Assembly: GCF_000685295.1 (NCBI RefSeq)
Contig: NZ_ARYL01000005.1
Coordinates: forward strand, 1 to 64,000
Direction: 5' to 3'
DNA length: 64,000 bases
Source: Hyphomonas oceanitis SCH89
Lineage (GTDB): Bacteria; Pseudomonadota; Alphaproteobacteria; Caulobacterales; Hyphomonadaceae
In this document: positions 5,427 through 22,719 of the stretch, piece by piece
Layout: each line of letters starts with the position of its first letter
Position numbering within the stretch: position 1 is the first letter of the stretch
Program-made: the position numbers and the translations under genes
The notes under the pieces: model-generated
What the model was told of the DNA's origin: nothing
What the model saw: the letters and a program-made list of their open reading frames with translations, nothing else
Databases searched by the model: none

Positions 5427-6422
5427 TCATGGAAGCGGCAAGTGTTCATGTATCATGCCAATCACGACTTTCTGGTCACTCTCCAGCACGGGTGGATGGA
5501 AGTGAATTCGGTTGCGATGCGGTTCGAGTTTCACGTGCCATTCGCAGTACAATCGGCGAGTACCCACGAACGCCTCTCGGGCTTGGCGGCTCGCCAAATG
5601 ATTCCGCACGTTTGGATTTTCGGGAGCGGCGTCTATACCAAATCCAGTAAACCTATCACGAACCACTTGGTTATTTGGTCGCTCGTTGGCGTTCAGCGGC
5701 TCCCCCTCATTCGGTCTTAATGAGGGCGGCGGCCAAGTGAAGGCCCACTCCCCCCAGTCGTCTAATGTCGAAAGCGCCCTCTGCACACTACTCTTGGATG
5801 CAATGTACCCTCCTCCAAGTTGGCCAGCATGTTGAAGGGTGCCCTCCACGAAATATAATCGGGGATAAGCATGAGACGCGTGCCTAATCAGGCTCTCCAA
5901 ACTATCGCCGTGAAATACGATCATTTCCCGCCAAAATCGTGTCCTGTTCGTTTCATCGGCAACAAAGTGCACGCGGGTGGTCCCGAACCCGGTTTTTGTC
6001 TCCGCAACCACGCTTTCCCCAAAAGTGAAGCACGCTGCAGACTGGCCTGCCAGCATACAGCAGTGCGCCCAAGTCACGTCCGGATTATCTAAACCAGGTA
6101 CGCCGCCTATGGAGATCATAGAATCGTCAATTCCATCCGGCCAATCAGGTGCATCTGCATAGCGGCGCGCCGTTGCAAGCCACGCTGTGAGTTCTTGCAA
6201 TAGTTCACGGCGCAAGTGCACGGGAGATTGACTCCCAAATAGATCCCAAATGCTGAGCGTGCCATGCATCGCACGCGTCTGAAAGTCGTCGCCGATCACT
6301 ACGTCCTCCCCGCGGGAGCGAGACACATCGACAAAGCTTAGAGCTTGATCCAATAGTTTTTCGATCTGATCTGCGGTTAAGGTTGCAAAATCCCAGTCGG
6401 CACCATTGATCACGAACATCAC
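5427..6422 (-). CDS. Unknown third protein of a DUF262/DUF3696 module, 331 aa
   Basis: I do not recognise the fold. The start is either the GTG at 6422, two bases after the ATPase stop codon, or the ATG at 6419, so it is translationally coupled to the ATPase. The N-terminus (FVINGADWDFATLTADQIEKLLDQAL) looks helical. The middle holds a Cys/His patch (WAHCCMLAGQSAACFTFGES) and several Trp-rich stretches. The C-terminus has the phrase CEWHVKLEPHRNRIHFHPP followed by VVIGMIHEHLPLP. From memory, similar endings occur in other partners of defence ATPases (low certainty). There is no signal peptide or membrane segment. It could be an effector or an adaptor for the ATPase; which one cannot be decided from sequence. 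Confidence 0.7.
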   Translation of the reverse strand: MMFVINGADWDFATLTADQIEKLLDQALSFVDVSRSRGEDVVIGDDFQTRAMHGTLSIWDLFGSQSPVHLRRELLQELTAWLATARRYADAPDWPDGIDDSMISIGGVPGLDNPDVTWAHCCMLAGQSAACFTFGESVVAETKTGFGTTRVHFVADETNRTRFWREMIVFHGDSLESLIRHASHAYPRLYFVEGTLQHAGQLGGGYIASKSSVQRALSTLDDWGEWAFTWPPPSLRPNEGEPLNANERPNNQVVRDRFTGFGIDAAPENPNVRNHLASRQAREAFVGTRRLYCEWHVKLEPHRNRIHFHPPVLESDQKVVIGMIHEHLPLP

Positions 6423-6424
6423 GC

Positions 6425-7537
6425 TTAACGCTTTCTCCGTCGGATCCGGCCGAGTGACGAAACATCAATCTGGTACTGATCAAAGAAACCTTTGGGCCAG
6501 TCTGACACACTGCCAGTGTCACTGACGGATAGCGTATCGGAGACTGCCTGCCCTGCTGCCTCCGTCTCGCCGCCGAACCAGTGCAGTAAAGCAGAGTCGG
6601 AAGGCAGATAACAGTGTTCCGCTATGGCCCTGCGGATGCCGTTGACGACGTGGTCCGAATGCGTCTCGACCACGATTTGGACACCACGTCCTGCGAGCCA
6701 AGCAAGAAACACGCCCATTCTGGATTGGCCGGCAGGATGCAGGTGAGCTTCGGGATTCTCAACTAGCATAAGCCCCCCTGTTTCGGCGATTAGGCCTGCA
6801 AGTACGATTGGAAGCGCATAAGTGATACCGAAACCCATATTCGTCGAGCGCACCCAAGTGGAACCTGGTGTCCTAAATTTCAATTCGGCGACCGTCGCAC
6901 CAACGGCACGCTCGCCAGTGACTTCGATGGGGCGGGCTATCTCGCTGAGCCATTGCTCCACTTCGTACTTGAGCAGCCGGGGAGAGGCATCTTGATTCAG
7001 CGGATGCGCCCGATCGACATTGTCGATAGGGCGATCACCCAAGACGCTCAGTACGTGCGCGCAATACTCTCCACGCGCGCCCACAACGAGTTCCGCTTCT
7101 GGAACGGGCGATGTGGCAGTAAACCCTCTCGGCCCAAGTCGCTCGGCGCTCAGATATGTAAATGCGCGAGGCGCGCCTGAGAACGGTTTGAGAGAGCAAG
7201 CCGGATGCTCACTAATATCTAAGTAGAAAGCCTCTTCGTATGGAACTGCAAATTGCCATTTCGAAGCTTCTGTCCCATGCTCACAAAAGGATATTTCGAT
7301 CGGACTGGTACTCTGCCAGTTCAGCACATCTTCCGCAGTTCCAAGCTCAAGCCCAAACGGTCCGTTCAGTCGGAGAGAAGCTGACTTCGCTGTAGAGGCT
7401 TCAGCAACGAGCAAAACAGCCTGCAGCAGCGACGTTTTGCCGGATCCGTTCAAGCCTGTGAGCACCGTGAGCGGAGCCAGATCGAAATGCTCATCCGCGA
7501 AGCGTTTAAAGCCCTTTATATTTGCCGAGACGATCAC
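6425..7537 (-). CDS. SMC/Rad50-like AAA ATPase with a DUF3696-type C-terminus
   Basis: A 370-residue ABC-type ATPase of the AAA_15/AAA_21 (OLD- and RecF-like) group. Visible motifs: IKGFKRFADEHF at the N-terminus; Walker A GLNGSGKTSLLQ at about residues 28-39; a Walker B/signature region LMLVENPEAHLHPAGQSRMG at about 245-265; a switch His in ETHSDHVVNGIRRAI; and a C-terminal WPKGFFDQY typical of DUF3696. There is no long coiled coil. The start is GTG at 7537, overlapping the stop of the DUF262 gene as GTGA, so the two are coupled. ATPases of this group are common sensors or motors in antiphage systems (family knowledge). A role here with the DUF262 protein is inference. Confidence 0.85.
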   Translation of the reverse strand: MIVSANIKGFKRFADEHFDLAPLTVLTGLNGSGKTSLLQAVLLVAEASTAKSASLRLNGPFGLELGTAEDVLNWQSTSPIEISFCEHGTEASKWQFAVPYEEAFYLDISEHPACSLKPFSGAPRAFTYLSAERLGPRGFTATSPVPEAELVVGARGEYCAHVLSVLGDRPIDNVDRAHPLNQDASPRLLKYEVEQWLSEIARPIEVTGERAVGATVAELKFRTPGSTWVRSTNMGFGITYALPIVLAGLIAETGGLMLVENPEAHLHPAGQSRMGVFLAWLAGRGVQIVVETHSDHVVNGIRRAIAEHCYLPSDSALLHWFGGETEAAGQAVSDTLSVSDTGSVSDWPKGFFDQYQIDVSSLGRIRRRKR

Positions 7538-8715
7538 TTCAGGATATCCGCCAAGATGGCCCGAGTGCGCTCAAGCCGATAGGAAACCTTGTTTGTGTCG
7601 CCCGTGCCGACGGTAACCGCCTTCAGGTAATCAGGCTCCAAGAAGGCATTTCGAAACGCGCTTACGATCGCATCGCTGTGAGGCAACATTTTATCCAAAC
7701 TGTGATCAGCCAGCGCATTAGCTTGCGCCTCGAAAACGGCGCGGTTGATCGGGCCGCGACGTTCAGCCCCAATTGGCCAGCGCCTAAACGCAGCCGTACC
7801 GAGAATGCCATGCGCCGCTTCCATCGCTCGATGGAAATCTGCCTCTAGCGTGGAGAGCACTTCGTCTGAAATTGACGACTGTTTCGCGGTCCGATCAATT
7901 CTTTTGGTGAAGTTCATCAGAAAGGCGTCAAGACTTCGAAATTCACGGTACTCTTCCATCGAACAGGTCCGGAATGCGCAGAATCGAAGCACCAATTCAC
8001 GATTTGCCATGCGCGCCGAGTCTCGCTCAACATCACCGTTAGACAACCTTCTCCAGTACTGGCGCTCTGTAGCGGCATCAAACACTTCAGCTTCGGCCAG
8101 ACGGGCGATGAAAGTCCGGGAACGTTGCCCGCTCATTGCATGCCGGATCTCCTGCGGCGAGAGCGGGCTGCCAAGAGTGTTAACGCGATTGAAGATATCG
8201 TATTTCACTTCGTCAGGTGTTTGCGGCTCGATGATGTGCACAACGATCTGTGTGCTCCGGAATCGCCTGACCGCTGACGGATCCAGCTGGCTATATGTCA
8301 AATTGTGCAGATCCGAGAGATATTCCAGATCATCACTCGACAGAGGGTGCTTGTCGCCCATGAAAAGTGCAATTGTTGAAAGACGCTGCACTCCGTCGAC
8401 TACCTGATAGGCGCCGCTCTCTGACTGATCGAAATAGAATGCCGGCAAAGGAATTCCGAGTAGGATAGACTCAACCAGACGCGTTCGTTGCCGAGCCTTC
8501 CAAACATAAGCGCGCTGAAAGTCCGGTGAGAGATCGATATCGCCATCCGAGATCTGATCGACGACTTCGCGTAGCGTAAAAGATTTGGTAGTTATCCGAA
8601 TCTTTCCAGGATCCCACGGCTTGATCCCGCCGGTATGACTGCTGAGGTCTTCGCTGTTGTCGAGGCCGTCGATGTCTTCTTCGGGGGACATATTCCTAAC
8701 AACATCTTCGTTCAT
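7534..8715 (-). CDS. DUF262 (GmrSD N-terminal-like) domain protein
   Basis: A 393-residue protein, first gene of a three-gene leftward operon. The DUF262 domain covers roughly residues 45-200: FTLREVVDQISDGDIDLSPD, FQRAYVWKARQRTRLVESIL, GIPLPAFYFD, then YQVVDGVQRLSTI. The family motif is usually DGQQR; here it reads DGVQR. DUF262 has a ParB/sulfiredoxin-like fold and, in GmrS-like proteins, is tied to nucleotide hydrolysis and restriction of modified phage DNA (family knowledge). The rest is helical, and there is no HNH-type DUF1524 nuclease domain as in full GmrSD, so the nuclease or effector would have to come from elsewhere. A purine-rich GGAAGCGG precedes the ATG. Confidence 0.85.
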   Translation of the reverse strand: MNEDVVRNMSPEEDIDGLDNSEDLSSHTGGIKPWDPGKIRITTKSFTLREVVDQISDGDIDLSPDFQRAYVWKARQRTRLVESILLGIPLPAFYFDQSESGAYQVVDGVQRLSTIALFMGDKHPLSSDDLEYLSDLHNLTYSQLDPSAVRRFRSTQIVVHIIEPQTPDEVKYDIFNRVNTLGSPLSPQEIRHAMSGQRSRTFIARLAEAEVFDAATERQYWRRLSNGDVERDSARMANRELVLRFCAFRTCSMEEYREFRSLDAFLMNFTKRIDRTAKQSSISDEVLSTLEADFHRAMEAAHGILGTAAFRRWPIGAERRGPINRAVFEAQANALADHSLDKMLPHSDAIVSAFRNAFLEPDYLKAVTVGTGDTNKVSYRLERTRAILADILK

Positions 8716-10821: not shown

Positions 10822-11247
10822 TCACGCGGAGTGCTCGTCGCGTATCCATCGCTCAACGTTCAAGATTGTTGCGTCGATATCAGCCTTTATATCGCATTCC
10901 CAGACAATTCGAACCCTCCAGCCAAGCGCCTCCAACGCAGCAATGTTGCGCCCGTCACGCTCAACATTCTTCGCAAATTTGTCCATCCAGAACTCGGCCC
11001 GCGTCGATGGCGTGGAAGCATATCTGCAGCCGGGATGGCGATGCCAGAAGCAGCCATGCACAAAGACGACTGCATTCCAGCGCGGCAGCACGATGTCCGG
11101 TCGGCCGGGCAGCTTCTTGTCGTGCAACCGGTAACGCAGTCCTCGGGCGAAGAGTCCCTTTCGCAAGTCGAGTTCGGGTCTCGTGTCCTTTCCCCCGATT
11201 CCGGCCATCATTCGGGACCGGACCATTGAAGAAACTACATCAACCAA
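10822..11247 (-). CDS. vsr: Very short patch repair endonuclease Vsr
   Basis: A 141-residue protein with the Vsr pattern: MVRSRMMAGIGGKDTRPELD at the N-terminus, GLRYRLHDKKLPGRPDIVLP with the metal-binding Asp, VVFVHGCFWHRHPGC with the conserved His and Zn-associated Cys/His, and the C-terminal WECDIK. Vsr nicks next to T:G mismatches produced when 5-methylcytosine deaminates and is nearly always linked to a C5-methyltransferase gene, as here. The start region faces the methyltransferase gene divergently. With the ATG at 11247, GGTGGAA is a plausible ribosome-binding sequence. Confidence 0.92.
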   Translation of the reverse strand: MVDVVSSMVRSRMMAGIGGKDTRPELDLRKGLFARGLRYRLHDKKLPGRPDIVLPRWNAVVFVHGCFWHRHPGCRYASTPSTRAEFWMDKFAKNVERDGRNIAALEALGWRVRIVWECDIKADIDATILNVERWIRDEHSA

Positions 11248-11314
11248 CGAATTTCCACCCTGGCGCGAGGCGCCGAATTGTATAGACTCCCCAAAACGCT
11301 GGAGACCGCCAAAC

Positions 11315-12904
11315 TTGCCTGACCCATATCATGTCATCGACCTGTTTGCAGGACCGGGAGGGCTCGCTGAAGGGTTCTGCGCAGCACGTGCGGAAGATGG
11401 AACGCGTCGTTTCAACATCGCGCTGTCTATCGAAAAGGATCCTGCTGCTCACAAAACGCTCCTGCTGAGGGCCTTTCTTCGCCAGTTCTCGGGTAGCTTT
11501 CCAGACGAATACTACACCTGGCTGAACGGCGGTAGCGGTCAGCCAGATTGGCAGACGCTCTATCCAGATGAATGGTTGAGTGCCACTGAGGAAGCGCAGT
11601 GTCTCGAACTCGGCAAGAAGGCGGCAGATCGTGCCATCGACGCGCGGCTTGATACCATTGTCGCGCAGGCAGCCGACCGGTGTATCGTCATCGGCGGACC
11701 CCCATGCCAAGCATACTCCTTGGCAGGCCGATCCCGGAACAGCGGCAACAAGGACTACAAGCCGGAAAAAGACCAACGACACTTCCTGTATCGGGAGTAC
11801 ATCAGGATACTCGAGCGCGTGAATCCAGCTCTGTTCGTGATGGAGAACGTAAAGGGTATCGTATCGTCTAATATCAACGGCAAGACGATTGCCTCGCAGA
11901 TTCTCGATGACCTTCGTAATGCAGGTTCGAAGGGTGTCGGCTATCGATTGGTGTCGTTAGGGACCAGAGACAGCCTTTTCAACGAGTCCGAAGAACTCTC
12001 GATGAGAGATTTCCTTGTACGTGCCGAAGAGTGGGGGCTGCCTCAAGCAAGACACCGTGTGATCATTATCGGCATCCGAAACGATCTATGGGAAGCGAAC
12101 GCCGATGTCGGGCTTGCACAGCATATGCCCGCCATATCACGGGATGTTCTCAAGGGACTTCCCCACCTGAGGTCGGGCCTAAGCAAGGAAACCGACAATC
12201 TCGAGAACTGGCGCGCGGCTGTCGAAGCCGCATATGTAGCGATACTGCGAGAGACTCGGAAATCCGACACGAAGGTCCACGACAAGGCCGCCGACCGACT
12301 TGACGCCTTCCGTACCAGGAATGCCGCACTCGACCGGATCGAGCAGGGCGTACCGGGCGTTTCGTCCCGGTGTCCTGACACTCTGGCGCAATGGATACTC
12401 GATCCCAAGCTCCGGCGCACCTATAACCACGAGGCCAGAACACACATACGGTCCGATCTCGGTCGGTATCTCTTTGCGTCGGTTTTCGCACTGGTTCACA
12501 AGCGCTCCCCCAAAGCGGGCGAGTTCCCGAAATCACTTTCACCGAAGCACGAGAACTGGAATTCCGGAGACTTTTCCGACAGGTTTCGCGTACAGGTCTG
12601 GTCACGGCCTTCCACGACAGTCACGAGCCATATATCCAAGGACGGGCACTATTTCATACATCCGGATCCGCTTCAGTGCAGAAGCCTGACGGTTCGTGAG
12701 GCAGCAAGACTCCAGACGTTTCCCGACAATTACGTATTCCTCGGAAACCGGACTCAGCAATATGTGCAGGTCGGGAATGCTGTCCCCCCGTTCCTCGCCC
12801 GAAACATAGCGGATGTCGTCTGGCGCCTCCTGGCTAGCGGCAACAGCGTTCGCCGAAGCGGGCGCGACCTGTTTGTTTCAGAGGCCGGAAGCGAGGCGGC
12901 GTGA
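11315..12904 (+). CDS. DNA (cytosine-5) methyltransferase
   Basis: A C5-methyltransferase of about 529 residues with all main motifs: I (HVIDLFAGPGGLAEGF), IV with the catalytic Cys (GGPPCQAYSLAGRSR), VI (VMENVKGIV), VIII (QARHRVIIIG), IX (VREAARLQTFPDNY) and X (QVGNAVPPFLA). The target recognition region lies between VIII and IX. An upstream GTG at 11183 would overlap vsr by 65 bp. I prefer the TTG at 11315, because GGAG lies 10 bases ahead and it places motif I close to the N-terminus as usual. The 3' end overlaps the converging AIPR gene by 27 bp. It likely protects host DNA for the neighbouring Z1/DUF4420 system (inference). The target sequence is unknown. Confidence 0.92.
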   Translation: MPDPYHVIDLFAGPGGLAEGFCAARAEDGTRRFNIALSIEKDPAAHKTLLLRAFLRQFSGSFPDEYYTWLNGGSGQPDWQTLYPDEWLSATEEAQCLELGKKAADRAIDARLDTIVAQAADRCIVIGGPPCQAYSLAGRSRNSGNKDYKPEKDQRHFLYREYIRILERVNPALFVMENVKGIVSSNINGKTIASQILDDLRNAGSKGVGYRLVSLGTRDSLFNESEELSMRDFLVRAEEWGLPQARHRVIIIGIRNDLWEANADVGLAQHMPAISRDVLKGLPHLRSGLSKETDNLENWRAAVEAAYVAILRETRKSDTKVHDKAADRLDAFRTRNAALDRIEQGVPGVSSRCPDTLAQWILDPKLRRTYNHEARTHIRSDLGRYLFASVFALVHKRSPKAGEFPKSLSPKHENWNSGDFSDRFRVQVWSRPSTTVTSHISKDGHYFIHPDPLQCRSLTVREAARLQTFPDNYVFLGNRTQQYVQVGNAVPPFLARNIADVVWRLLASGNSVRRSGRDLFVSEAGSEAA

Positions 12905-14713
12905 CGTCGCAAGAGGCTTCGACCAGCCCTGTGAAGACTTGCGAACGCTTTCGCGCGCCTGAGGCAGATGTTCAAGAATGGATATCCAGCACTCTGCCTT
13001 CTTTGCCCATTCGCTGACGTTGGATAGGCCACGCCCCGAACTCGTCAGTTTCCGATTGACCGTCTCCGACAGGCTGGCAAGGACCACCGTCAGCGAATCG
13101 GGAATCTGCTGTTTCTGCCACAGCGCAGCGGTGTCTAGCGTCAGGACCTCAGCATCAAGGGCACGAGATAGAAGCGCATTTGCATAGTTCACGATGTTTG
13201 CGCGGTAGCCGCCCTCATACCAGGACTGTGCAGAGACAATACGCTCACTGGATTTGAAGATGATTGCCCTGATCACGGCCTGCCGGAAATAGTCCTCGTC
13301 GAACCGGTCAGCGTGTTCCTTCCATTCCTCGCCGATGCGGACAGCATAGCGGGCGAAGTTCTTCTGGGCACCGAGATTCACGCGAACCGGGTCATCGTCC
13401 CAGATATTGTCGTACTTTGCGAGATCGGTCTTGCGCAGTAGCTGACTCTTCGGATTCTGCTGCAGGAATACGCGTTTGCCCCGTGCATCGAGTCGCGTCT
13501 GTTCCTCAGCATATTGCCCTCGAACGCGCTCGTAGTACCATCTGGTTTCCGTCTGCTGTCCGGCAGGCGCCGGAGCCCAGAGTCTTCTCGAAAATGATTC
13601 CATTCGGATGTGAAAAGGGTGATTGGCGAAGAAGTCTGCCGCGTTGACCGTGTTCTGGGTATTCGCATATTGCGAAATTTTCGGCACGACTTCCTCGAAT
13701 CTTGCCTCGTCGATCACAGTCAACTTCATCTGGACGAAGACCTTGGAAAGATCGGCACGATCTTTCCTGCGGGCGTGAAACAAGGACGCCGTCGTCTGTC
13801 CACCGTTCACGATCTGCAGGTCCTTTATTGTCCTGACCCGGCTCGTTCCACCATCCGAAACCACATCCAGGGCGGAAGCGGTCGCGGTGATTCCGTTGTT
13901 GTAGGCGAAGAACATGCCCGGATCCCCGAGGATAGTGTCGCGAATACCGCGGTTGGCCTTGTTGGTCGCCTGGAGAAAGGCACGGACATTCTGTTCGAGC
14001 AATCTCGCCCCGTATCGCGCATACAAATCCGCCAGTACCGACCCTGGCAGCGCAAGCAGATAGGACTTGTAGATATCGCTTTCCAGATGCGCAGGCAGAC
14101 AGGGAATTGCGCCTGCGGTGAAGGACTCGAAGTCGATTTCGATGGCTTCCTTCTGATTCCGAGACGTCCTGAGCCGGTGAAGGCGGCTCATGTCCCAGAT
14201 ATGAAGCGCGACTGGAATCGCGTCATCGTGCATCGACAGATCGATCGTGTCGAACCGGTCACTCAACTGGCGTTCCGAAAGCACGTAGAGCCTGACCCGT
14301 CCGAACTGGCGTCCGCGCTCGTGAATGGCCCGTGACACAGCATAGACTTCCGAAGTCTCTTCCAGTGAGCGATGAAGTTCGCCCGACAGGGACCGCGAAA
14401 AGAAGGCTGTCAGGCGCTTCACGAAAGCCGTGACTTCAGTCCGCGTCAACGTCTCAAGGACCGGTCTCTGGTTGAAGTCGGCGATGAATAGATCCAGCCC
14501 GTCGTCCGAATTGAACCCGAAACCATCTATCTGGACCCCACGCACATTCGGAGAAATACAGGTCTGCAGTTCCTCGATCTCGTCGCATTGCTCGAGCTCC
14601 CGGCCAAAAGCATTCAGGAACTCGATCTTCTCGAAATCCTTGTTCGCCATAGCGGAGGCGAGAACTTCCTGACGAAATTCCTCGAACGTGTCTTCTATTG
14701 TCGTATCCGTCAT
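12878..14713 (-). CDS. AIPR (abortive infection phage resistance) family protein
   Basis: A 611-residue protein matching the AIPR family, with the hallmark stretch FFAYNNGITATASAL at about residues 270-285, preceded by LPGSVLADLYARYGARLLEQNVRAFL and followed by LQIVNGGQTTASLFHARRK. An acidic N-terminal section (EEFRQEVLASAMANKDFEKI) precedes it. The founding AIPR members come from lactococcal abortive infection systems; the mechanism is not settled. It starts at an ATG that overlaps the stop of the DUF4420 gene as ATGA, so it is the last gene of the four-gene operon. Confidence 0.88.
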   Translation of the reverse strand: MTDTTIEDTFEEFRQEVLASAMANKDFEKIEFLNAFGRELEQCDEIEELQTCISPNVRGVQIDGFGFNSDDGLDLFIADFNQRPVLETLTRTEVTAFVKRLTAFFSRSLSGELHRSLEETSEVYAVSRAIHERGRQFGRVRLYVLSERQLSDRFDTIDLSMHDDAIPVALHIWDMSRLHRLRTSRNQKEAIEIDFESFTAGAIPCLPAHLESDIYKSYLLALPGSVLADLYARYGARLLEQNVRAFLQATNKANRGIRDTILGDPGMFFAYNNGITATASALDVVSDGGTSRVRTIKDLQIVNGGQTTASLFHARRKDRADLSKVFVQMKLTVIDEARFEEVVPKISQYANTQNTVNAADFFANHPFHIRMESFSRRLWAPAPAGQQTETRWYYERVRGQYAEEQTRLDARGKRVFLQQNPKSQLLRKTDLAKYDNIWDDDPVRVNLGAQKNFARYAVRIGEEWKEHADRFDEDYFRQAVIRAIIFKSSERIVSAQSWYEGGYRANIVNYANALLSRALDAEVLTLDTAALWQKQQIPDSLTVVLASLSETVNRKLTSSGRGLSNVSEWAKKAECWISILEHLPQARESVRKSSQGWSKPLATSRRLASGL

Positions 14714-15669
14714 AGGGCTGGTCCCGGTAGTTCTGCGACTCTGAAACCGGACAGCTGAACGAGGTCTAGCGTGTACTGGACGCCAGACACAGCGGTGGGC
14801 AGCTGCCGGGGCGTCAGCACCGGAAATTCTTCCGTGACGCCAAAGAAGTCGATGGCGCCCAGCCTGAACCTCGGCGCATCGTAGTAGGGAAGCTCGATGT
14901 AGCCGGCGGCACCAAGCCGGTCCTCGAACAGATCCAGGACGTCTGCGGGGAGGATCGATTTCAACGCCGTCACCACCTCGTTGAGTGAATGTCCAAGCTT
15001 TGGCTCTCCCTCTTCTACAAGCTGCACAGCAGCGAGGAACACGGGAACATCATCGACCTGAAGCTGGAACTCGGAGGAAATCCGGACCTTTGCTCCGCCC
15101 GATCCGCCCCACGACTTCACTTCTATCAACTGGTCCGCGAACCTGAAGTCCTGAGCAGCTCGCAAGGGCCCCACCCAGCCCGTCAGGGCGTCGGCTGCCG
15201 ATCGGCCGTTGTCCGAAATAAGAAGCCCAAGAATCTCGAGCTCGGCGACAAGCCCGCGAATGCCATCTGTCGACAACAGACGTCGACCATCTCGCGCCAG
15301 GAAACGTTGCCATCGGTCTAGCCGTGATAGAAAGGACAGGACTGCCTGACGTTCCTCGGTGAGGTCTTCGATGCAGGCGGCGAGGTCTTCGCAAAGGGTA
15401 GCAAAGAGCTCCTCGTCCTTCGCCTCACGAAGGGCCACGATCAAACCGTACGAACCGGCCCCGGCAAACATGCGATGATCGAGAGTCAGACCCTGGATTT
15501 CGGGCAACCGCATCAGCAGATCCGCATGGTCGAACTTCATCTCCAGCATGAACGCGATATGTCCGTCCGCATGCCGGCCGACTGAGGTCCGGATCGGTGA
15601 CACAGAAGTTCTCAGCTTCCAGATGTAGTCAGCGCTGGGTGGCTGCAGCTGGCTCCAGAGACCCCTCAT
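14710..15669 (-). CDS. DUF4420 (PD-(D/E)XK motif) putative nuclease
   Basis: About 319 residues from the ATG at 15669, which overlaps the Z1 stop codon as ATGA. The longer open frame upstream lies inside the Z1 gene and is not credible. The C-terminal half carries the PD-(D/E)XK-type core: LVAELEILGLLI, then FRFADQLIEVKSWGGSG with the E-x-K pair. The N-terminal half includes MLEMKFDHADLLMRLPEIQG. DUF4420 proteins accompany Z1 and GHKL ATPases in restriction-like operons and are the probable DNA-cutting component (family knowledge plus inference). Confidence 0.85.
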   Translation of the reverse strand: MRGLWSQLQPPSADYIWKLRTSVSPIRTSVGRHADGHIAFMLEMKFDHADLLMRLPEIQGLTLDHRMFAGAGSYGLIVALREAKDEELFATLCEDLAACIEDLTEERQAVLSFLSRLDRWQRFLARDGRRLLSTDGIRGLVAELEILGLLISDNGRSAADALTGWVGPLRAAQDFRFADQLIEVKSWGGSGGAKVRISSEFQLQVDDVPVFLAAVQLVEEGEPKLGHSLNEVVTALKSILPADVLDLFEDRLGAAGYIELPYYDAPRFRLGAIDFFGVTEEFPVLTPRQLPTAVSGVQYTLDLVQLSGFRVAELPGPAL

Positions 15670-18455
15670 GTCAAATCCTCGGGGTCGTTCATTACATCGT
15701 CGCGATCGTAGTCGTCCTCGTCGTCTGCCGAGTCGAAGCGCTCGCTTTCCAGCTGGTTCACCATCACGCGGTTGAGAACGTATTCTACCGTCGAAAAGTC
15801 GCCGGTCGCCGGAAAACTCAGCCCGATCGCCGGAGCCCCCGAAAGAAGTGACTTTTCGGCTGACTTTTCCAGAGGATTCCCGAGATCGATCAGGTGAAGC
15901 ATCAGCAATGGCGCGCCCCTGACACTCACATGGCGCGTATCCCTGTCGGTCCACTTGCTTCGCTTGCGGGAAGCGGCAACCTGAAGTGCCGCCTCCATTT
16001 CTATCCTGGACAGACCTGCACTTTCATCGCCCGTGCCGGCAACACGCTGGTTATTCGTCACGAAAAGACCGCCATCGATCTCCTTTAGCTGGTCTTCGCT
16101 CGTGCCTGCCGAACGTGTCTGATGCACCATCTGGAAATCGCCGAGCGAGGTCGAAGGGCTTTCGCCGTCCGCATTTTTCAAGGATACAAATACAATGTCC
16201 CAGACCGGGAAGCGGTCCTTGATCAGGGAAAGATACTTTCGGGCACTCATCACCCTCTCGGCACTTAGGGGGTGCACTTGGAAGTCTGCGAGAAAATCGT
16301 TGACGATATCCGCTGGAATGCCTCGCCAGACCCGGGATGCAGGCCGCTCTCCGCCTTCGATCTTCTGCCCCGCATATTCGACCAGAAGACGGTCATGCAG
16401 ATTCCTGAACAGTTCGATATTCGCTTCGTGTGGCTCGGTCTTGCTCGAAAGAACATAGGTCTCGACAAGCTTGCCGTCATAGCTGACACTAACTGTACGC
16501 GTTTCAGCAGCCCGCATCTTGTTCATCGCGGTGACTGTCAGGCTGTCGGGATGCGATTCCACCATCAGTCCGAACGTGCGAGGCGTTGCATTGGACCGGT
16601 TCATTTCCTTGATGCGATCCCGCAGCTCTTCGGAAGCTTCGGAAATATGCGTGTACCAGCCGATCGAGTCCGCCGCCAGCCAGACGCGACACAGATCCTC
16701 GTAGCCAGGTCGATACCCGAACCATCGCCCCATCTGGAGAAGCGTATCGTACATCTTGGTGTTGCGGTACATGTAGCTGATCGTGAGCCCTTCGATCGTC
16801 AACCCGCGAGACAGGCTCAAGCCACCGATCGCAATCACGTTCAGCGCTTCCCCCCGGTCGGAGAAGTCAGCATAGTTCAGTCCGTCAGGCGACTTGCTGT
16901 TCACCACGGCCGTGATGATCGACCGAATGGCATCGGGGAGCAGCTCTTGTACAGACTTCCAGTCGACTCCGGCATCATCGTATTTTTCGGTTTCGAAGGT
17001 CGATCTGATTGCGGCGAGATGAGCGTTCTTCAGGGCAATGTCGGCGGGCATTCCTGCGCTTGCCAGAATCGCGTTGCGCAACTCCTCGAGATAGACCGTA
17101 ACTTGCCGATCGACTTCGCTCTGTACATCGACAAACCGCGATATGTTGATCAGCATCGAACAGTGCTTGGCACCTTGTCCACGTGCCGTTCGGATGACGC
17201 GAGCCAGAAGGAAGGACCGGATCGACTTCTTCAGCGATGGAGGCAATTCGGCGAACTCGTGCGTCTTTGCATGCTTCAGGGGAATGATCGTCTCGCAGTC
17301 CTCGATGGCACTGATATGCCGCGCTTTCGATTCCTCTTCCAGAAACAGACGCTCTGCGCCGAAATAGTTGCTTGGTGCATCAAGGCAGTGAATGAAGTGC
17401 TCGGGGAACAGATCCTTCCGAGATTCCTCGTCATAGGCTTCGGGGTTTATGAAGATGTTGGCGAAGGGCGTGGCCGTGTAACCGACATAGCAGCTCTTCC
17501 TGAACAGTCCGAGCAGGTTGCGGATGAGCCTGTTCGTGGTTGTCGGTTTGAGCTCGGGCTTGTTCGTGTTGATGGAAGCATTGTCGGCCTCGTCGTCGAT
17601 GAACAGCATCGGAATGTTGGCAATCTGCTTCTGTCCGGGCATGCGATTGAAATCTTCGAGCCACTTGTTCAGCGCCACGAGTGTCGATCGGTTCTTCTTG
17701 ATTACGACGATGACCGGCTTGCTCCAGTCTTCGAGGCCGCCGCGTAGCGAATTGGCGACGGCCTTCTTGAAATCGTCTGCGGTGGACGTCAGAGCGACCG
17801 GGCGCTTGTGATCGGGGTCAACCAGACCCACGCCGATCTTCGAGGTTCCTGTCTGCGCTTTCAACTTCTCCTTTCGGGTCGGGTCACTGACTTCGCCGAC
17901 AAAGCCTTCGTCCACGCGCTCCTGTGTCTGGCGCCGCAGATTGTTGTGGATTCCCGCAACCACGACGATGAACTTGTATCCAGCATCGGCAGCGCGTGCG
18001 ACCAGGCCGAGATAGTTCGCCGTCTTGCCCGACTGGACGTGACCGATGACCAGTCCCCTCCTGTCCCAGCTGCCCTCGACCTCCGGATCCTGAAGGTAAC
18101 CGACAAGTCGCCGCGTCACCATGCCGAGTGAGTCGGCGACGCGCGGAGGCCATCCATCCTGGCGGAGGAATTCGAGGTAGGAATCGGAATACTTCCACTC
18201 GATGGCACGATGCGACAGCCAGTTCGGATCGTGAGCGGCATCCGGCCCGATGAGTGAAACGCCCTCGCCCATGCGATGGGAAATCTGCTCTCTGGCCTGA
18301 AGGACGATAGCCCCGACGTCCACAGTGAACCCCAGAAGATCTGCAAGGCCCTTGGCTGTTGCTTCGAGCTCCTCGACCGTCGGCGGCACCAGCTGGCTTC
18401 CGAACCGCCCGACAAGCGTTCTCAACACTTGTTGTGCTTCTGCATCATGGTTCAT
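15666..18455 (-). CDS. Z1 domain helicase-like ATPase
   Basis: A 929-residue protein of the Z1 group of superfamily II-like ATPases. Visible: Walker A in VIGHVQSGKTANYLGL (about residues 137-152), VVVAGIHNNLRRQTQERVDE, a DExD-type Walker B MLFIDDEADNAS (about 285-296), motif III-like VGYTATPFANIFINP, and later IAIGGLSLSRGLTIEGLTISYMYRNTKMYDTLLQMGRWFGYRPGY, the Z1 signature. It is the usual motor subunit in operons with a GHKL ATPase, DUF4420 nuclease and AIPR protein. It lies 14 bp after the GHKL gene on the same strand and overlaps DUF4420. Confidence 0.93.
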   Translation of the reverse strand: MNHDAEAQQVLRTLVGRFGSQLVPPTVEELEATAKGLADLLGFTVDVGAIVLQAREQISHRMGEGVSLIGPDAAHDPNWLSHRAIEWKYSDSYLEFLRQDGWPPRVADSLGMVTRRLVGYLQDPEVEGSWDRRGLVIGHVQSGKTANYLGLVARAADAGYKFIVVVAGIHNNLRRQTQERVDEGFVGEVSDPTRKEKLKAQTGTSKIGVGLVDPDHKRPVALTSTADDFKKAVANSLRGGLEDWSKPVIVVIKKNRSTLVALNKWLEDFNRMPGQKQIANIPMLFIDDEADNASINTNKPELKPTTTNRLIRNLLGLFRKSCYVGYTATPFANIFINPEAYDEESRKDLFPEHFIHCLDAPSNYFGAERLFLEEESKARHISAIEDCETIIPLKHAKTHEFAELPPSLKKSIRSFLLARVIRTARGQGAKHCSMLINISRFVDVQSEVDRQVTVYLEELRNAILASAGMPADIALKNAHLAAIRSTFETEKYDDAGVDWKSVQELLPDAIRSIITAVVNSKSPDGLNYADFSDRGEALNVIAIGGLSLSRGLTIEGLTISYMYRNTKMYDTLLQMGRWFGYRPGYEDLCRVWLAADSIGWYTHISEASEELRDRIKEMNRSNATPRTFGLMVESHPDSLTVTAMNKMRAAETRTVSVSYDGKLVETYVLSSKTEPHEANIELFRNLHDRLLVEYAGQKIEGGERPASRVWRGIPADIVNDFLADFQVHPLSAERVMSARKYLSLIKDRFPVWDIVFVSLKNADGESPSTSLGDFQMVHQTRSAGTSEDQLKEIDGGLFVTNNQRVAGTGDESAGLSRIEMEAALQVAASRKRSKWTDRDTRHVSVRGAPLLMLHLIDLGNPLEKSAEKSLLSGAPAIGLSFPATGDFSTVEYVLNRVMVNQLESERFDSADDEDDYDRDDVMNDPEDLT

Positions 18456-18469
18456 GATCGAACTCCAAG

Positions 18470-20035
18470 TCAGGTCGCATACAACTCAAGAGAGACGGCA
18501 TCGATCACTTCGATACTTCGGCCCGCGAGTCCAGTCGACAGGACAAGTCTTGCGAAGTCTCGCGGCTCCATATCACCATCGGGATCGAGAACCGATTTCA
18601 GTCCGGCGATCGTCTCGCGAAGCTCGTCGGGGTTGTCACGCGCCAGCGTTACACGCTTCGGATCGTCGGCGAAGTCCGCATAGATGGCGTCGACGGGAAA
18701 GGCGGCGCCCAGCGCCAACAGCGCTGTTCGTACAGGTGCCTCGCTGTTGGGCCCTGCGCTTTCGATGGCTGCTCGCAACAGCGGGTGATCGAAATCGGGG
18801 GCATAGGAGATCATGCCGTCGCGACCCACTGTGCGGGTCCAGACGGGAGAGGCGCCTGGCTGAAGGATACGCTCGCCTCGTCCCTGGTGCACCCGCACGC
18901 TCCGTCCCGCGATTCGCTCGATGATTCTCTTGAACCTCGCGCGGACAGCAGGCGGCGGATGGGCTCGGGATTTCTTGATGTCGATCGTCCAAAGCGCATC
19001 GAGTGTTGATGGAAAGTCGATCCGGACGCGTGCAAGTTTCGTCGCTTCACCTCGCGGAATCATCCGGAACCAGTCGCCCCAAGCCATCAATCGCCCGTTC
19101 CTGTAGACGTAGGCTCCCTGGTTCGAGAGAAATTCGCTCCGGTCCTTGTAGTACCGCCAGGTTTGTGGCGACAGTTTAGAGTGATGAGGAAGGATGTAGG
19201 GCCGGATCTCGATCGTCTCACCATCGATGGACATCCTTTCAACGGGCAGTTCCTGCGTGGCGGTCTGCCCCCTGCAGAACGGGTCGAATGATTCCACGAC
19301 AATCCCGTTCACGCGGAACTTGAGCTTTCTCCGATCGACCGTGTCCCCCTCGATGAAGCGATGAAAGACCAAGGACAGGTGTCGTTGAAGAACGACAAGC
19401 TTGCCGCTGAGCAGATCCGAACGCGCTTGGCCTTCTGTTTCCTCGGCCAGGCGATCCAGCTTCTCGAGGAGAACCATTGTCCCGTGATCACCCAGCGTTT
19501 CGAGCCATGGAAGGCTTTCGATGTCCTCGGGTTCGGGCAAGGACAGGATCCAGTCGTCATGCTCGGCAAGCGCGTCGAGGTCCCATATCGCGGCGCTTGT
19601 GGCTCCACCCTTTCGGGATACGACTGTAAGTCGGCGACCCTGTGAAAAGGATGCGGTCTTCAGGCCCAAGCCGAACCTTCCAAGATCCCCGGCGCTACGT
19701 GCCTCTGTCGGACTCGTCGAACCCGGGCGCATCGCTGCGATCAGCTCGTCTTCGGTCATCCCGTGGCCGTCGTCGACAACTGCCAGCGCAAGTGGCTCCG
19801 CATCCACAGCACACCAGATGTCCACCTTGGTCGCGTTGGCCGAGATACTGTTGTCGATGATATCGGCAATCGCGGTCTCGAGCGAATATCCGAGATCCCT
19901 GAGAGATTCGATCAGCGAGGCGGCACGAGGTGGAAGTTTTCTCTGTCTGATGGAGTTCGCCAGTTCAAAAGAATTTGAATTCGCTGCATCCAAATCTGCT
20001 TTGCAAAATGGTTCAACCTTGAATCGCGAATGCAC
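18470..20035 (-). CDS. GHKL (MORC/MutL-like) ATP-binding protein
   Basis: A 521-residue protein whose first 250 residues form a GHKL ATPase: N-box LETAIADIIDNSISANATKV, in which the position equivalent to MutL catalytic Glu is Asp; G1 box VVDDGHGMTEDELIAAM; and G2 box DLGRFGLGLKTASFSQG. The downstream S5-like and C-terminal parts match prokaryotic MORC-like proteins. Comparative genomics (Iyer, Abhiman and Aravind, 2008) placed such proteins in restriction-modification-like operons with Z1 or other helicases and nucleases. It is the first gene of the operon. The frame starts at 20035; a later Met is possible. Its promoter should lie in the 174 bp downstream of the XRE gene. Confidence 0.88.
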   Translation of the reverse strand: MHSRFKVEPFCKADLDAANSNSFELANSIRQRKLPPRAASLIESLRDLGYSLETAIADIIDNSISANATKVDIWCAVDAEPLALAVVDDGHGMTEDELIAAMRPGSTSPTEARSAGDLGRFGLGLKTASFSQGRRLTVVSRKGGATSAAIWDLDALAEHDDWILSLPEPEDIESLPWLETLGDHGTMVLLEKLDRLAEETEGQARSDLLSGKLVVLQRHLSLVFHRFIEGDTVDRRKLKFRVNGIVVESFDPFCRGQTATQELPVERMSIDGETIEIRPYILPHHSKLSPQTWRYYKDRSEFLSNQGAYVYRNGRLMAWGDWFRMIPRGEATKLARVRIDFPSTLDALWTIDIKKSRAHPPPAVRARFKRIIERIAGRSVRVHQGRGERILQPGASPVWTRTVGRDGMISYAPDFDHPLLRAAIESAGPNSEAPVRTALLALGAAFPVDAIYADFADDPKRVTLARDNPDELRETIAGLKSVLDPDGDMEPRDFARLVLSTGLAGRSIEVIDAVSLELYAT

Positions 20036-20209
20036 CGCGAGTCGGAATGCTTCAATTGACCGTCAGTCAGCTTTGCTAAACCCATGCGAAAGCAAAATCG
20101 CGCCTCCCTTGAGCGCCGTCTCCAGAAAGACCTCTCTGTTGGCCGACCATTCTACAAAACAGGGGCTATTACCGCATCCGCGATACGCACGGATGCAAGA
20201 ATGAAATCG

Positions 20210-20419
20210 TCAATCCGGCATCACCAAGTCGACGTGCGAAACCCCAAGCGCCCGCGCCAGTTCATAGAGAGTCACTACCGTCGGATTGCGTCTACCCTGC
20301 TCCAATCCACTCAAATACTGCTGACTGAATCCTGAGCGTGCTTCGACCTCCTCCTGCGTGAGGTGTTTTTCACGACGAATGCGCGCAAAATTACGGCCTA
20401 CCAGCTTTCGCATATCCAT
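20210..20419 (-). CDS. XRE-family HTH regulator next to the Z1 operon
   Basis: A 69-residue single-domain XRE protein: RKLVGRNFARIRREKHLTQE, SGFSQQYLSGLEQGRRNPTVVTLYELARALGV. It is short but complete for this class (SinR/C.AhdI-like size). It is transcribed in the same direction as, and 174 bp upstream of, the GHKL-Z1-DUF4420-AIPR operon, and divergently from the small-protein gene at 20518. This placement suits a controller protein timing expression of a restriction-like system (inference by analogy with C proteins). A perfect TACTATAGTA palindrome and an AT-rich stretch lie in the divergent intergenic region. Confidence 0.85.
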   Translation of the reverse strand: MDMRKLVGRNFARIRREKHLTQEEVEARSGFSQQYLSGLEQGRRNPTVVTLYELARALGVSHVDLVMPD

Positions 20420-20517
20420 GCTGGCAGATTAACGCTTACATATTTTAGTGTTATGTACTATAGTATGTATTCGGTTGGAGTTTCGCTTTTTGGTTGGCCA
20501 TCGTCAGGAGATGCCAC

Positions 20518-20994
20518 ATGCTCAGCAAGTTGCAATTTCGCTCCATAGCGAAACATACTTCTCCCGTGCGGTCCGACTTTAGCAAGTCCCATCCCGACCT
20601 AGCAGCCAAAGTCTGTGCCGAGTGGCTGGACCGACATTCCGATCAAAGAAAACTCGCGGAGCGTTGGCAAAAACTTGAATCCTTTTTGATGCGCGAGCAC
20701 AATTTGTTTCAACTCAGCAAGCAGGAACTTGCGGACTATGTTGAGGCTGCTCCCTTGGACGTGATCAGTGATCGCCTTGATGAGCTATACGAATTAAACA
20801 GGAAACTGCTCGGCAGGATATCAAAGTCAGACGCAACGACTACGCATGGGCTCTCGAGCAAGCTGCTCGTTGCCTTGGCGCTCGTTCACCCCGATGAGAA
20901 CAAGGAAGTCCACTTGCTCATTCGAAGCATTTTGTGTGACATCGAGCCGGACGCGCCAACGATCTACGCTGGCATCCTCAACCCACCAAAGTGA
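20518..20994 (+). CDS. Small island protein A2, paralogue of the gene at 3384
   Basis: A 158-residue protein of unknown family. The ATG at 20518 has CAGGAG seven bases upstream, which favours it over the GTG/ATG-like codon at 20494. Regions shared with the 159-aa protein at 3384-3863 are listed there. Notable here are EWLDRHSDQRKLAERWQKLE, LDELYELNRKLL and VHPDENKEVHLLIRSILCD. It is predicted soluble, helical and charged. It is divergent from an XRE gene, as is its paralogue. The function is unknown; its recurrence at both flanks of the defence cluster is the main clue. Confidence 0.7.
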   Translation: MLSKLQFRSIAKHTSPVRSDFSKSHPDLAAKVCAEWLDRHSDQRKLAERWQKLESFLMREHNLFQLSKQELADYVEAAPLDVISDRLDELYELNRKLLGRISKSDATTTHGLSSKLLVALALVHPDENKEVHLLIRSILCDIEPDAPTIYAGILNPPK

Positions 20995-21261
20995 GGTAGC
21001 CTCGAAGACTTCAGCCTCAAAAGAGGACCTTTTGAGAGCGCTCCTCTTTCGGTGCAGGAACGCCAAGGCGGAATCGCGTACATATCCAGCCTTTTTTGTC
21101 CCGCTTTCGAAGCTTCCTTGACGGCAGGCACCCTAAAAGCCGACCCCAGAACATTATGCAGATCACACCATTCGGCACGGACATGGTGCGGGCACAAAAA
21201 ATAAGTGACCGCACGATCACTCACAATTATTACCTAATGCAATGTTATTATTGAGAAAAAA
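20995..21261. other. Intergenic stretch before the tRNA-Thr fragment
   Basis: About 270 bp, becoming AT-rich towards the right (ATTATTACCTAATGCAATG...). I see no gene. It probably includes the end of one mobile segment. Confidence 0.4.
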
Positions 21262-21306
21262 TGGTGCCGCTAAGGTGACTTGAACACCTGACCCCCGCAT
21301 TACGAA
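21262..21306 (-). other. Orphan 3' half of tRNA-Thr(CGU), probable attachment-site scar
   Basis: Read on the minus strand this is TTCGTAA (an anticodon loop with CGU), the 3' side of an anticodon stem, a variable region, a perfect T-arm AGGTG-TTCAAGT-CACCT, and an acceptor strand ending AGCGGCACCA. The sequence 5' of the anticodon loop cannot form the anticodon stem or any D-arm, so the tRNA is cut exactly at the anticodon loop, as happens when a tyrosine recombinase duplicates the tRNA 3' end. It lies 23 bp from the stop codon of the integrase gene. Confidence 0.75.
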
Positions 21307-21328: not shown

Positions 21329-22543
21329 TCAGCGTTTCAGCACCAACGGCCCCAACCACCCATCAATCGCCTCCGCCACATCCCGCTTCAGATCTGCATA
21401 CTCCGCCCGGATATAGTGCTTGCGCGCCACGCTCGCCGTCTGGCCATGGTTATGCCAGATATCGAGCCAGCGTTCGTCCACGCCAGCATCAATGAGATGT
21501 GTCTTCATCGTGCGGCGCAGGTCACGTGGATTCCAGTCCGGTAATTTGAGCTGCTTGTTCAGACGCTTCGCGCCACGTGAAATGGCTGCCATGGTGAGTG
21601 GTTCCTCCGGGTCGCGAGGATTGGACAGGAGATATGGCGAGCGCGGGTGAGCGAGCTCAAGACACCGTGCGACGAGTGGGGCAGCGGTCCTGGTAATCGG
21701 CAGCTGATGCGACCTGCCGTTCTTTGTCTCCGGCAAAAGCAGCCAGCCATCGCGCCAGTTCGCAGCGAGACTCATTGTGACCTCCGTCACGCGCAGGCCG
21801 CCCATGGCGATCATCAGTTTCAGGACGCGGTGTGTGGGATGGTTCTCGTCCAGCGTATGCCAGAGCGCTTTCAGTTCGTCGTTGGAGAGAAACCGGTCGC
21901 CCGGTTTGTTCTTGGGTGTCGTTGGCAGCTGCTCGGCGATATTATAGGTAATGCCATAGTCCCGCGCGCCACCGCGATAATCGTAACGGTTCTTCACCGC
22001 CCATTTCCAGGCCGTGACAATGTAAGAGCGAAGATGCGGTGCATAGTTCGGACTCCGGGCATAGCTCTCTGCCATCCAGGCCTGCAGGTCCTGGATCGTA
22101 ACGTCCCCGGCGCGCGGCATGCCGCCGTGGCGGGCGACCAGAAAGGGCAGGAGAGCATACTTCCCGTCAATCAGCGTACCCTTGACGCGCCCATAGGATG
22201 TCACACCGCGCGCCTGCATGTCGGCGACATAGTCGTGAAAGAAATTGGCAGCGGATGCGGACACAGCATCGGCCACTTCCTCGGCCCGCGCGGCCGGCGT
22301 CGGCGCCAGCGCGCGCATTTCCCGGAACTCTCCGGCGCGCGCTCTCGCTTCTCTCAGGCCGATCTCGGGATAGGCACCAATGCGGACCCGCACCGTCTTG
22401 CCGCCAAGCTTCCGCACAGCCGAAAAAGTCTTCGCACCGGTCCTGGCCACACGCACTTTTAGGCAGGATTCGATCGTGTCGGAATAGTCTCCCGGGTCGG
22501 TCACAGCCGAAAGCCAGGTGTCCGTAAGGCGCAGTTTTGCCAT
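21329..22543 (-). CDS. int: Tyrosine recombinase/integrase of a genomic island
   Basis: About 404 residues from the ATG at 22543, which has GGAG about 13 bases upstream; a frame to 22567 also exists. It has an N-terminal Arm-binding DUF4102-like domain (KLGGKTVRVRIGAYPEIGLREARARAGE), a core-binding domain (about residues 105-195), and a catalytic domain with MAMGGLRVTEVTMSL (first Arg), WNPRDLRRTMKTHL (second Arg), IWHNHGQTASVARKHYI (His and nucleophilic Tyr). It is full length, so it may be active. Its 5' end points to the tRNA-Arg(CCU) gene 100 bp away, the usual layout when that tRNA is the integration target. Confidence 0.92.
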   Translation of the reverse strand: MAKLRLTDTWLSAVTDPGDYSDTIESCLKVRVARTGAKTFSAVRKLGGKTVRVRIGAYPEIGLREARARAGEFREMRALAPTPAARAEEVADAVSASAANFFHDYVADMQARGVTSYGRVKGTLIDGKYALLPFLVARHGGMPRAGDVTIQDLQAWMAESYARSPNYAPHLRSYIVTAWKWAVKNRYDYRGGARDYGITYNIAEQLPTTPKNKPGDRFLSNDELKALWHTLDENHPTHRVLKLMIAMGGLRVTEVTMSLAANWRDGWLLLPETKNGRSHQLPITRTAAPLVARCLELAHPRSPYLLSNPRDPEEPLTMAAISRGAKRLNKQLKLPDWNPRDLRRTMKTHLIDAGVDERWLDIWHNHGQTASVARKHYIRAEYADLKRDVAEAIDGWLGPLVLKR

Positions 22544-22642
22544 GAGTTTTTGATCTCCGGTTACCATATGGTTACCACGGAGCCATTTGTGAGCAAAGTC
22601 TAACTTTTGCCCATTTATAATACATTGTTTTAATTGTTTTTT

Positions 22643-22719
22643 TGGTGATCCCGGCGCGATTCGAACGCGCGACCTACAGATTAGGAATCTGTTGCTCTAT
22701 CCTGCTGAGCTACGGGACC
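22643..22719 (-). tRNA. tRNA-Arg(CCU)
   Basis: Complete cloverleaf on the minus strand: acceptor GGTCCCG/CGGGATC with one G-T pair, D-arm with GCTCAG..GGATAGAGC, anticodon loop TTCCTAA (anticodon CCU), T-arm GCGCG-TTCGAAT-CGCGC, and an encoded CCA. The 3' end faces the integrase gene and is the probable attB of the island. I could not find a second copy of its 3' end inside the window. Confidence 0.96.

Follow-up and report, generated by a model that had tools for sequence, protein, structure and literature searches.

The window analysed here, the first 64,000 nucleotides of contig C5 (NZ_ARYL01000005.1) in the 188-contig draft assembly of Hyphomonas oceanitis SCH89 (GCF_000685295.1, genome G000), carries an intact tRNA-Arg(CCU) gene, the tyrosine integrase gene int-Arg and a 45-bp fragment of a tRNA-Thr gene, the Thr core, in immediate succession (Table 1). 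The fragment, read on the minus strand, comprises the anticodon loop (TTCGTAA), the 3' strand of the anticodon stem, the variable region, the T-arm, the 3' acceptor strand and the CCA end; no tRNA 5' half lies ahead of it and ARAGORN calls no tRNA at 21262-21306. Only 22 bp separate the stop codon of int-Arg from the Thr core, and the cargo genes—Mza-like defence genes, a methyltransferase gene and Nsn-like genes—all lie behind that core. An own-genome search with a 161 bp query (E <= 0.001) places the Thr core at three sites: the window, contig C24 and contig C37 (12835-12882). The intact tRNA-Thr(CGT) gene occupies C24:52742-52817, and its identity with the window core extends to 47/47 when two bases past the CCA are included; identity over 45 bases up to the anticodon loop would hardly be due to chance. 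The C37 core differs from tRNA-Thr at 6 of 45 positions when aligned ungapped, a pattern that one change plus one deletion close to the acceptor end may explain. The native gene on C24 is free of any island, the alignment with genome G028 continuing through the tRNA 3' end (L008 7329-17756).

Table 1. Features at the int-Arg/Thr-core junction and of the cargo behind it, in window coordinates
Feature	Position	Strand	Basis
NsnA, NsnB, NsnC-like genes	5427..8715	-	PADLOC
C-5 cytosine DNA methyltransferase	11183..12904	+	Pfam DNA_methylase; PADLOC methyltransferase models
Mza-like defence genes (MzaB, C, D, E)	12878..20035	-	PADLOC
Segment A, Thr-type element left end	20061..21261	.	89% identical to DNA directly behind intact tRNA-Thr, G033:C17
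Putative integrase arm-type site GTGCCCGCACCATGTCCG, Thr-type element left arm	21178..21195	-	17/18 bases common to C37:12687-12704 near right-hand core
Orphan tRNA-Thr(CGT) 3' half, probable attachment core of the Thr-type element left end	21262..21306	-	45/45 identical to intact tRNA-Thr at G000:C24
int-Arg (tyrosine integrase; enclosing tRNA-Arg island)	21329..22567	-	Pfam Phage_integrase and Arm-DNA-bind_3; homologues at tRNA-Arg(CCU) in 8/10 copies
Putative Arg-system arm-type site GGCTCCGTGGTAAC	22571..22584	-	Same 14-mer ~128 bp before distal Arg core in G000:C21; also before that of G014:C133
Intact tRNA-Arg(CCU), attL, Arg island left end	22643..22719	-	ARAGORN; distal Arg core at G000:C21:19442-19487

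An earlier sequence-only reading had described the fragment as a tRNA-Thr(CGU) 3' half lacking its 5' half and cut at the anticodon loop, and had looked to an intact gene with the same 45 bp elsewhere in the genome, a strongly differing gene being what would speak against it; the C24 gene bears this description out. The two tRNA targets which that reading placed within 1.5 kb do lie inside 1.46 kb, and its distance of about 100 bp between the integrase start and tRNA-Arg(CCU) holds from the next in-frame ATG (22543), becoming 75 bp if translation starts at 22567.

The tRNA-Arg island and its integrase

Homologues of int-Arg (E <= 1e-100) are found as 10 copies in 8 of the 105 genomes of the family, two of the copies carrying one in-frame stop. 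Eight of the ten (the window and seven of nine other loci) have an intact tRNA-Arg(CCU) gene just ahead of them, the remaining two being G033:C33, which follows an orphan Arg core, and G014:C106, which begins at a contig edge. At its far boundary the island ends in a distal Arg core that departs from the tRNA-Arg(CCU) 3' end at 2 of 46 bases, so that integrase with catalytic and arm-binding domains, intact tRNA and far-boundary direct repeat are all present, as in a tRNA-targeted tyrosine-recombinase island. Hyphomonas sp. BRH_c22 (G014), a metagenome-assembled genome with 9% estimated contamination, holds the whole Arg island on one contig (C133, about 56.4-91.5 kb) with both Arg cores, and the chromosome flanks of this island match C5 and C21 of H. 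oceanitis. In both genomes the 14-mer GGCTCCGTGGTAAC stands at the left end of the island and again ahead of the distal core. Of four other Arg cores searched, two have it with one mismatch (G033:C63, G004:C30), and within that limit it was not found at the remaining two (G031:C27, G033:C7).

The DNA following int-Arg varies among the ten copies. A Thr core stands there in two of them (G000:C5 and G014:C133), each time 22 bp past the stop codon, and none was found behind the other eight copies scanned. The two 22-bp spacers were considered as a sign of common origin by themselves and rejected, 25 of 200 shuffles reaching their similarity score, a score reached by 0 of 200 once the integrase ends are included. 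A tree of nine of the ten int-Arg copies (G062 omitted) clusters G000:C5, G014:C133 and G033:C33 with G014:C106, at 94% support against the rest and 42-53% within the cluster; G014:C106 has no Thr core. A single ancestral docking event behind int-Arg would be conceivable.

Several further features of these islands were observed in passing. At G033:C33 (L046 4000-5300), integrase-like DNA was seen by eye before the orphan Arg core ahead of int-Arg, which would put two Arg elements one after the other. A tRNA-Leu(CAG) gene lies in or near several Arg islands (L064 19906-19992 in G014 C133; L050 2277-2363 in G000 C21; L073, L074 and L077), and some genomes show a second tRNA-Leu call near the distal Arg core.

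The Thr-type element and int-Thr

The integrase of the Thr system, int-Thr, is encoded on C37 (11384-12652) by an open 422-aa frame, a longer version of which hits the Pfam models Phage_integrase and Arm-DNA-bind_3. The two ends of the element in H. oceanitis share a direct arm repeat, GTGCyCGCACCATGTCCG, situated about 66 nt after the CCA on the left and about 133 nt before the core on the right; at no more than one mismatch, a scan of the window, C37, C21 and part of C24 returns it solely at these two places. G156 and G010 have corresponding arm pairs, whereas G034, with an integrase 37% identical, has a different one; the spacing in all three is like that in H. oceanitis. In all four genomes the best left/right 16-mer match is 15-16 bases, against 13-14 for the best of 40 left-arm shuffles each, shuffles which preserve base composition only.

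Homologues of int-Thr amount to 51 copies across 37 of the 105 genomes. Among the 30 of these loci scanned for the Thr core (at most 13 mismatches), 7 have one, always upstream of the integrase, oriented like it and at similar spacing, and none was found at the other 23. The core also stands beside two further close copies (G010:C193, G020:C43); it is absent from G020:C5, a full-length close copy 75% identical to int-Thr. The orphan cores given for relatives are minimum numbers. Element left ends directly behind intact tRNA-Thr genes are seen at G156:C9 and G010:C35, and G034 and G131 have the intact gene and the orphan core on one contig, the textbook arrangement. At G033:C17, the DNA behind the intact tRNA-Thr is 89% identical to window 20061-21306, and segment A is followed there by a 2.5-kb segment B, 94% identical to part of C37, which ends inside int-Thr and thus truncates the integrase before the chromosome resumes; no right-hand Thr core was found at this element. 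G033 has the left portion of a Thr-type element inserted at its native tRNA-Thr gene. In H. oceanitis, segment B and the full int-Thr gene both lie on C37, and the Thr system has its cores on the window and C37, int-Thr and the common arms, on contigs that the assembly leaves unjoined. Genes for a TrwC relaxase and a TrwB coupling protein on C37, and for TrwB on C21, make helper mobilisation plausible. Genes of this type, where a full conjugation apparatus is missing, are characteristic of integrative and mobilizable elements.

Two side observations concern the int-Thr family. In G014, integrases 46-47% identical to int-Thr on C88 and C122 (L193, L194) adjoin, by eye, the apparent 3' half of a different tRNA, suggesting a target switch within the family. 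Contig C10 of G080 (L167-L169) carries three Thr cores and three int-Thr-like genes, likely a tandem array of Thr-type elements.

Probable nesting of the two elements and its possible history

Judged by sequence, two distinct systems are present, each having an integrase, an arm repeat, a tRNA core and a distal core of its own, and the native tRNA-Thr gene is free. Since the arms, the homologues and the distal cores assign int-Arg to tRNA-Arg and the Thr core to int-Thr, the 45-bp fragment is very probably where a Thr-type integrative element has its left attachment site. That element, with int-Thr at its far end on C37, would be nested in a larger island which entered tRNA-Arg(CCU) via int-Arg. 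Of the two proposals made by the sequence-only reading, the abutting of two island boundaries is supported, the Arg left end (tRNA-Arg, arm, int-Arg) being followed by the Thr-type left end (Thr core, arm, segment A), whereas the targeting of tRNA-Thr by the adjacent integrase is not. By sequence order, one element lies within another or its attachment site, as in a composite genomic island, with the gap between C5 and C37 remaining. Neither an excised circle nor an emptied dock was seen.

The right flank of the C37 core resembles both the right flank of the Thr core within the Arg island of G014 (C133) and the DNA to the right of the intact tRNA-Thr on G014:C82, and these two flanks resemble each other, 0 of 200 shuffles reaching the score at 30 bp or at 100 bp in each comparison. 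For the other pairs the shuffles reaching the score at 30 and 100 bp numbered, out of 200, 29 and 10 for C5/C133 (the latter borderline), 23 and 41 for C5/C37 and, with the native flank, 92 and 44 for C24/C133 and 18 and 81 for C24/C37. A stretch about 4.6 kb beyond the C37 core (C37:17478-20998) aligns with the Arg island of G014 at 89% identity and without inversion. The first 30 bp or so of C5 and of C37 are multi-copy sequences that differ from each other, and a bridge between the two contigs sought through their ends was not found. Window 10498-8838 is 94-95% identical to the last part of C37 and then, across a gap of some 33 bp, to the first part of C21, a collinearity that makes these two contigs probable, though unproven, neighbours. 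In G033:C33, int-Arg is joined to segment-A-like DNA without a Thr core, and in G028:C3 a 51-bp int-Arg remnant lies between segment-A-like and segment-B DNA; these joins indicate related associations of int-Arg with Thr-type DNA outside this strain.

Nesting is read from the arms common to both ends, from the unbroken run of segment A into segment B in G033 and from the collinearity with G014; C5 and C37 would carry the two ends of one element copy. A Thr core would already have stood behind int-Arg before the present element, and a circle bearing int-Thr would have recombined with it near the anticodon loop, giving int-Arg, the incoming core, the element from segment A to int-Thr, the older and decayed core, and an older Thr-type left end, B. 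The most economical order in H. oceanitis would then be tRNA-Arg, int-Arg, Thr core, element A, int-Thr, decayed core, left end B, further cargo and Arg core, a composite that might move as one through int-Arg, with an inner element that might leave through int-Thr. The unchanged left core and decayed right core would fit an incoming element bringing its own core to an older, unselected site. Since the strain has a native tRNA-Thr gene that is unoccupied, the inner island may have come in as a passenger.

In BRH_c22 a Thr core also follows int-Arg, but the DNA beyond it is different, which suggests that this core could be a reusable docking site. Extended to Hyphomonas tRNA-Arg islands in general, the idea would be that a full tRNA-Thr 3' half behind the integrase offers a port at which tRNA-Thr elements dock, swap or stack, hitchhiking even though the host tRNA-Thr is free; this is put forward tentatively, as a possibility that may well fail. 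If the port is reusable, it would supply a simple, testable rule for island growth and module swapping. Anti-phage cargo would build up by an element tied to one tRNA riding inside an element tied to another, which suggests that the spread of such an element does not depend on its own target alone.

A variant of the origin, compatible with nesting, is that the Thr-type element struck an unrelated secondary site behind int-Arg, with no earlier Thr core there, and brought its core with it. The lack of a Thr core behind eight of ten int-Arg copies favours it, and it is among the two histories proposed for a composite island in the literature (PMC8978831). However, the C37 right end has a decayed second core followed by G014-like DNA, and one such insertion would not leave two near-full cores, so that the variant is unlikely as a full account, though a minority chance to be taken seriously; secondary-site capture may be how a first Thr-type element arrived. 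It is rather doubtful that the core is a dead remnant, marking an old insertion with its attachment function lost: decay of the C37 core, and that no circle was seen, would agree with this, but the window core is unchanged, a putative arm site accompanies it and int-Thr has kept its open frame. That the assembler switched repeats at the 45-bp core, int-Arg and segment A being no true neighbours, is conceivable in a draft of so many contigs with a repeated core, yet very improbable given the related joins in G014:C133 (int-Arg to Thr core), G033:C33 and G028:C3 (int-Arg to segment-A-like DNA) and the collinearity of the native tRNA-Thr junction with G028. Use of the Thr core by int-Arg, with tRNA-Thr as its true target, has nearness alone in its favour and is made very improbable by arm repeats at both Arg ends, by homologues positioned at tRNA-Arg(CCU) rather than before a Thr core, and by a different, fitting integrase, int-Thr, with matching arms at the Thr cores.

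Relation to known composite and stacked elements

Composite islands are a known kind, to which the nested island of H. oceanitis belongs; less usual are its two different tRNA systems and the near-full tRNA half that serves as inner site. In the library searched, no description of an island of this kind in Hyphomonas turned up. The closest case found in print is CGI48/GI21 of Shewanella putrefaciens CN-32 where, in the portion of the account available (PMC8978831), an island in a tRNA gene likewise holds a second island. Relatives of that inner island insert at a different chromosomal target, which the host still has in intact and available form, and the authors suggest that the composite may have brought the inner island along. 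The inner island of CGI48/GI21, however, has 9-bp sites, in contrast to the full and near-full tRNA-Thr 3' halves described here. Its excision was measured, whereas the present island is described from sequence; and, unlike in that excerpted account, a relative is at hand here with int-Arg and then a Thr core with other DNA behind it.

Tandem accretion of IMEs, ICEs and CIMEs, as reviewed in the part of PMC5704250 that bears on it, is similar in that an incoming element enters the attachment site of a resident one to give stacked elements; these have one common target, whereas two different tRNA targets are involved here. The tripartite ICE of Mesorhizobium, according to the available part of PMC5882170, comprises three dispersed regions with three integrases and an ordered assembly, in contrast to the two nested systems of H. 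oceanitis, but shares with them the presence of several integrases with separate attachment sites on one mobile unit.
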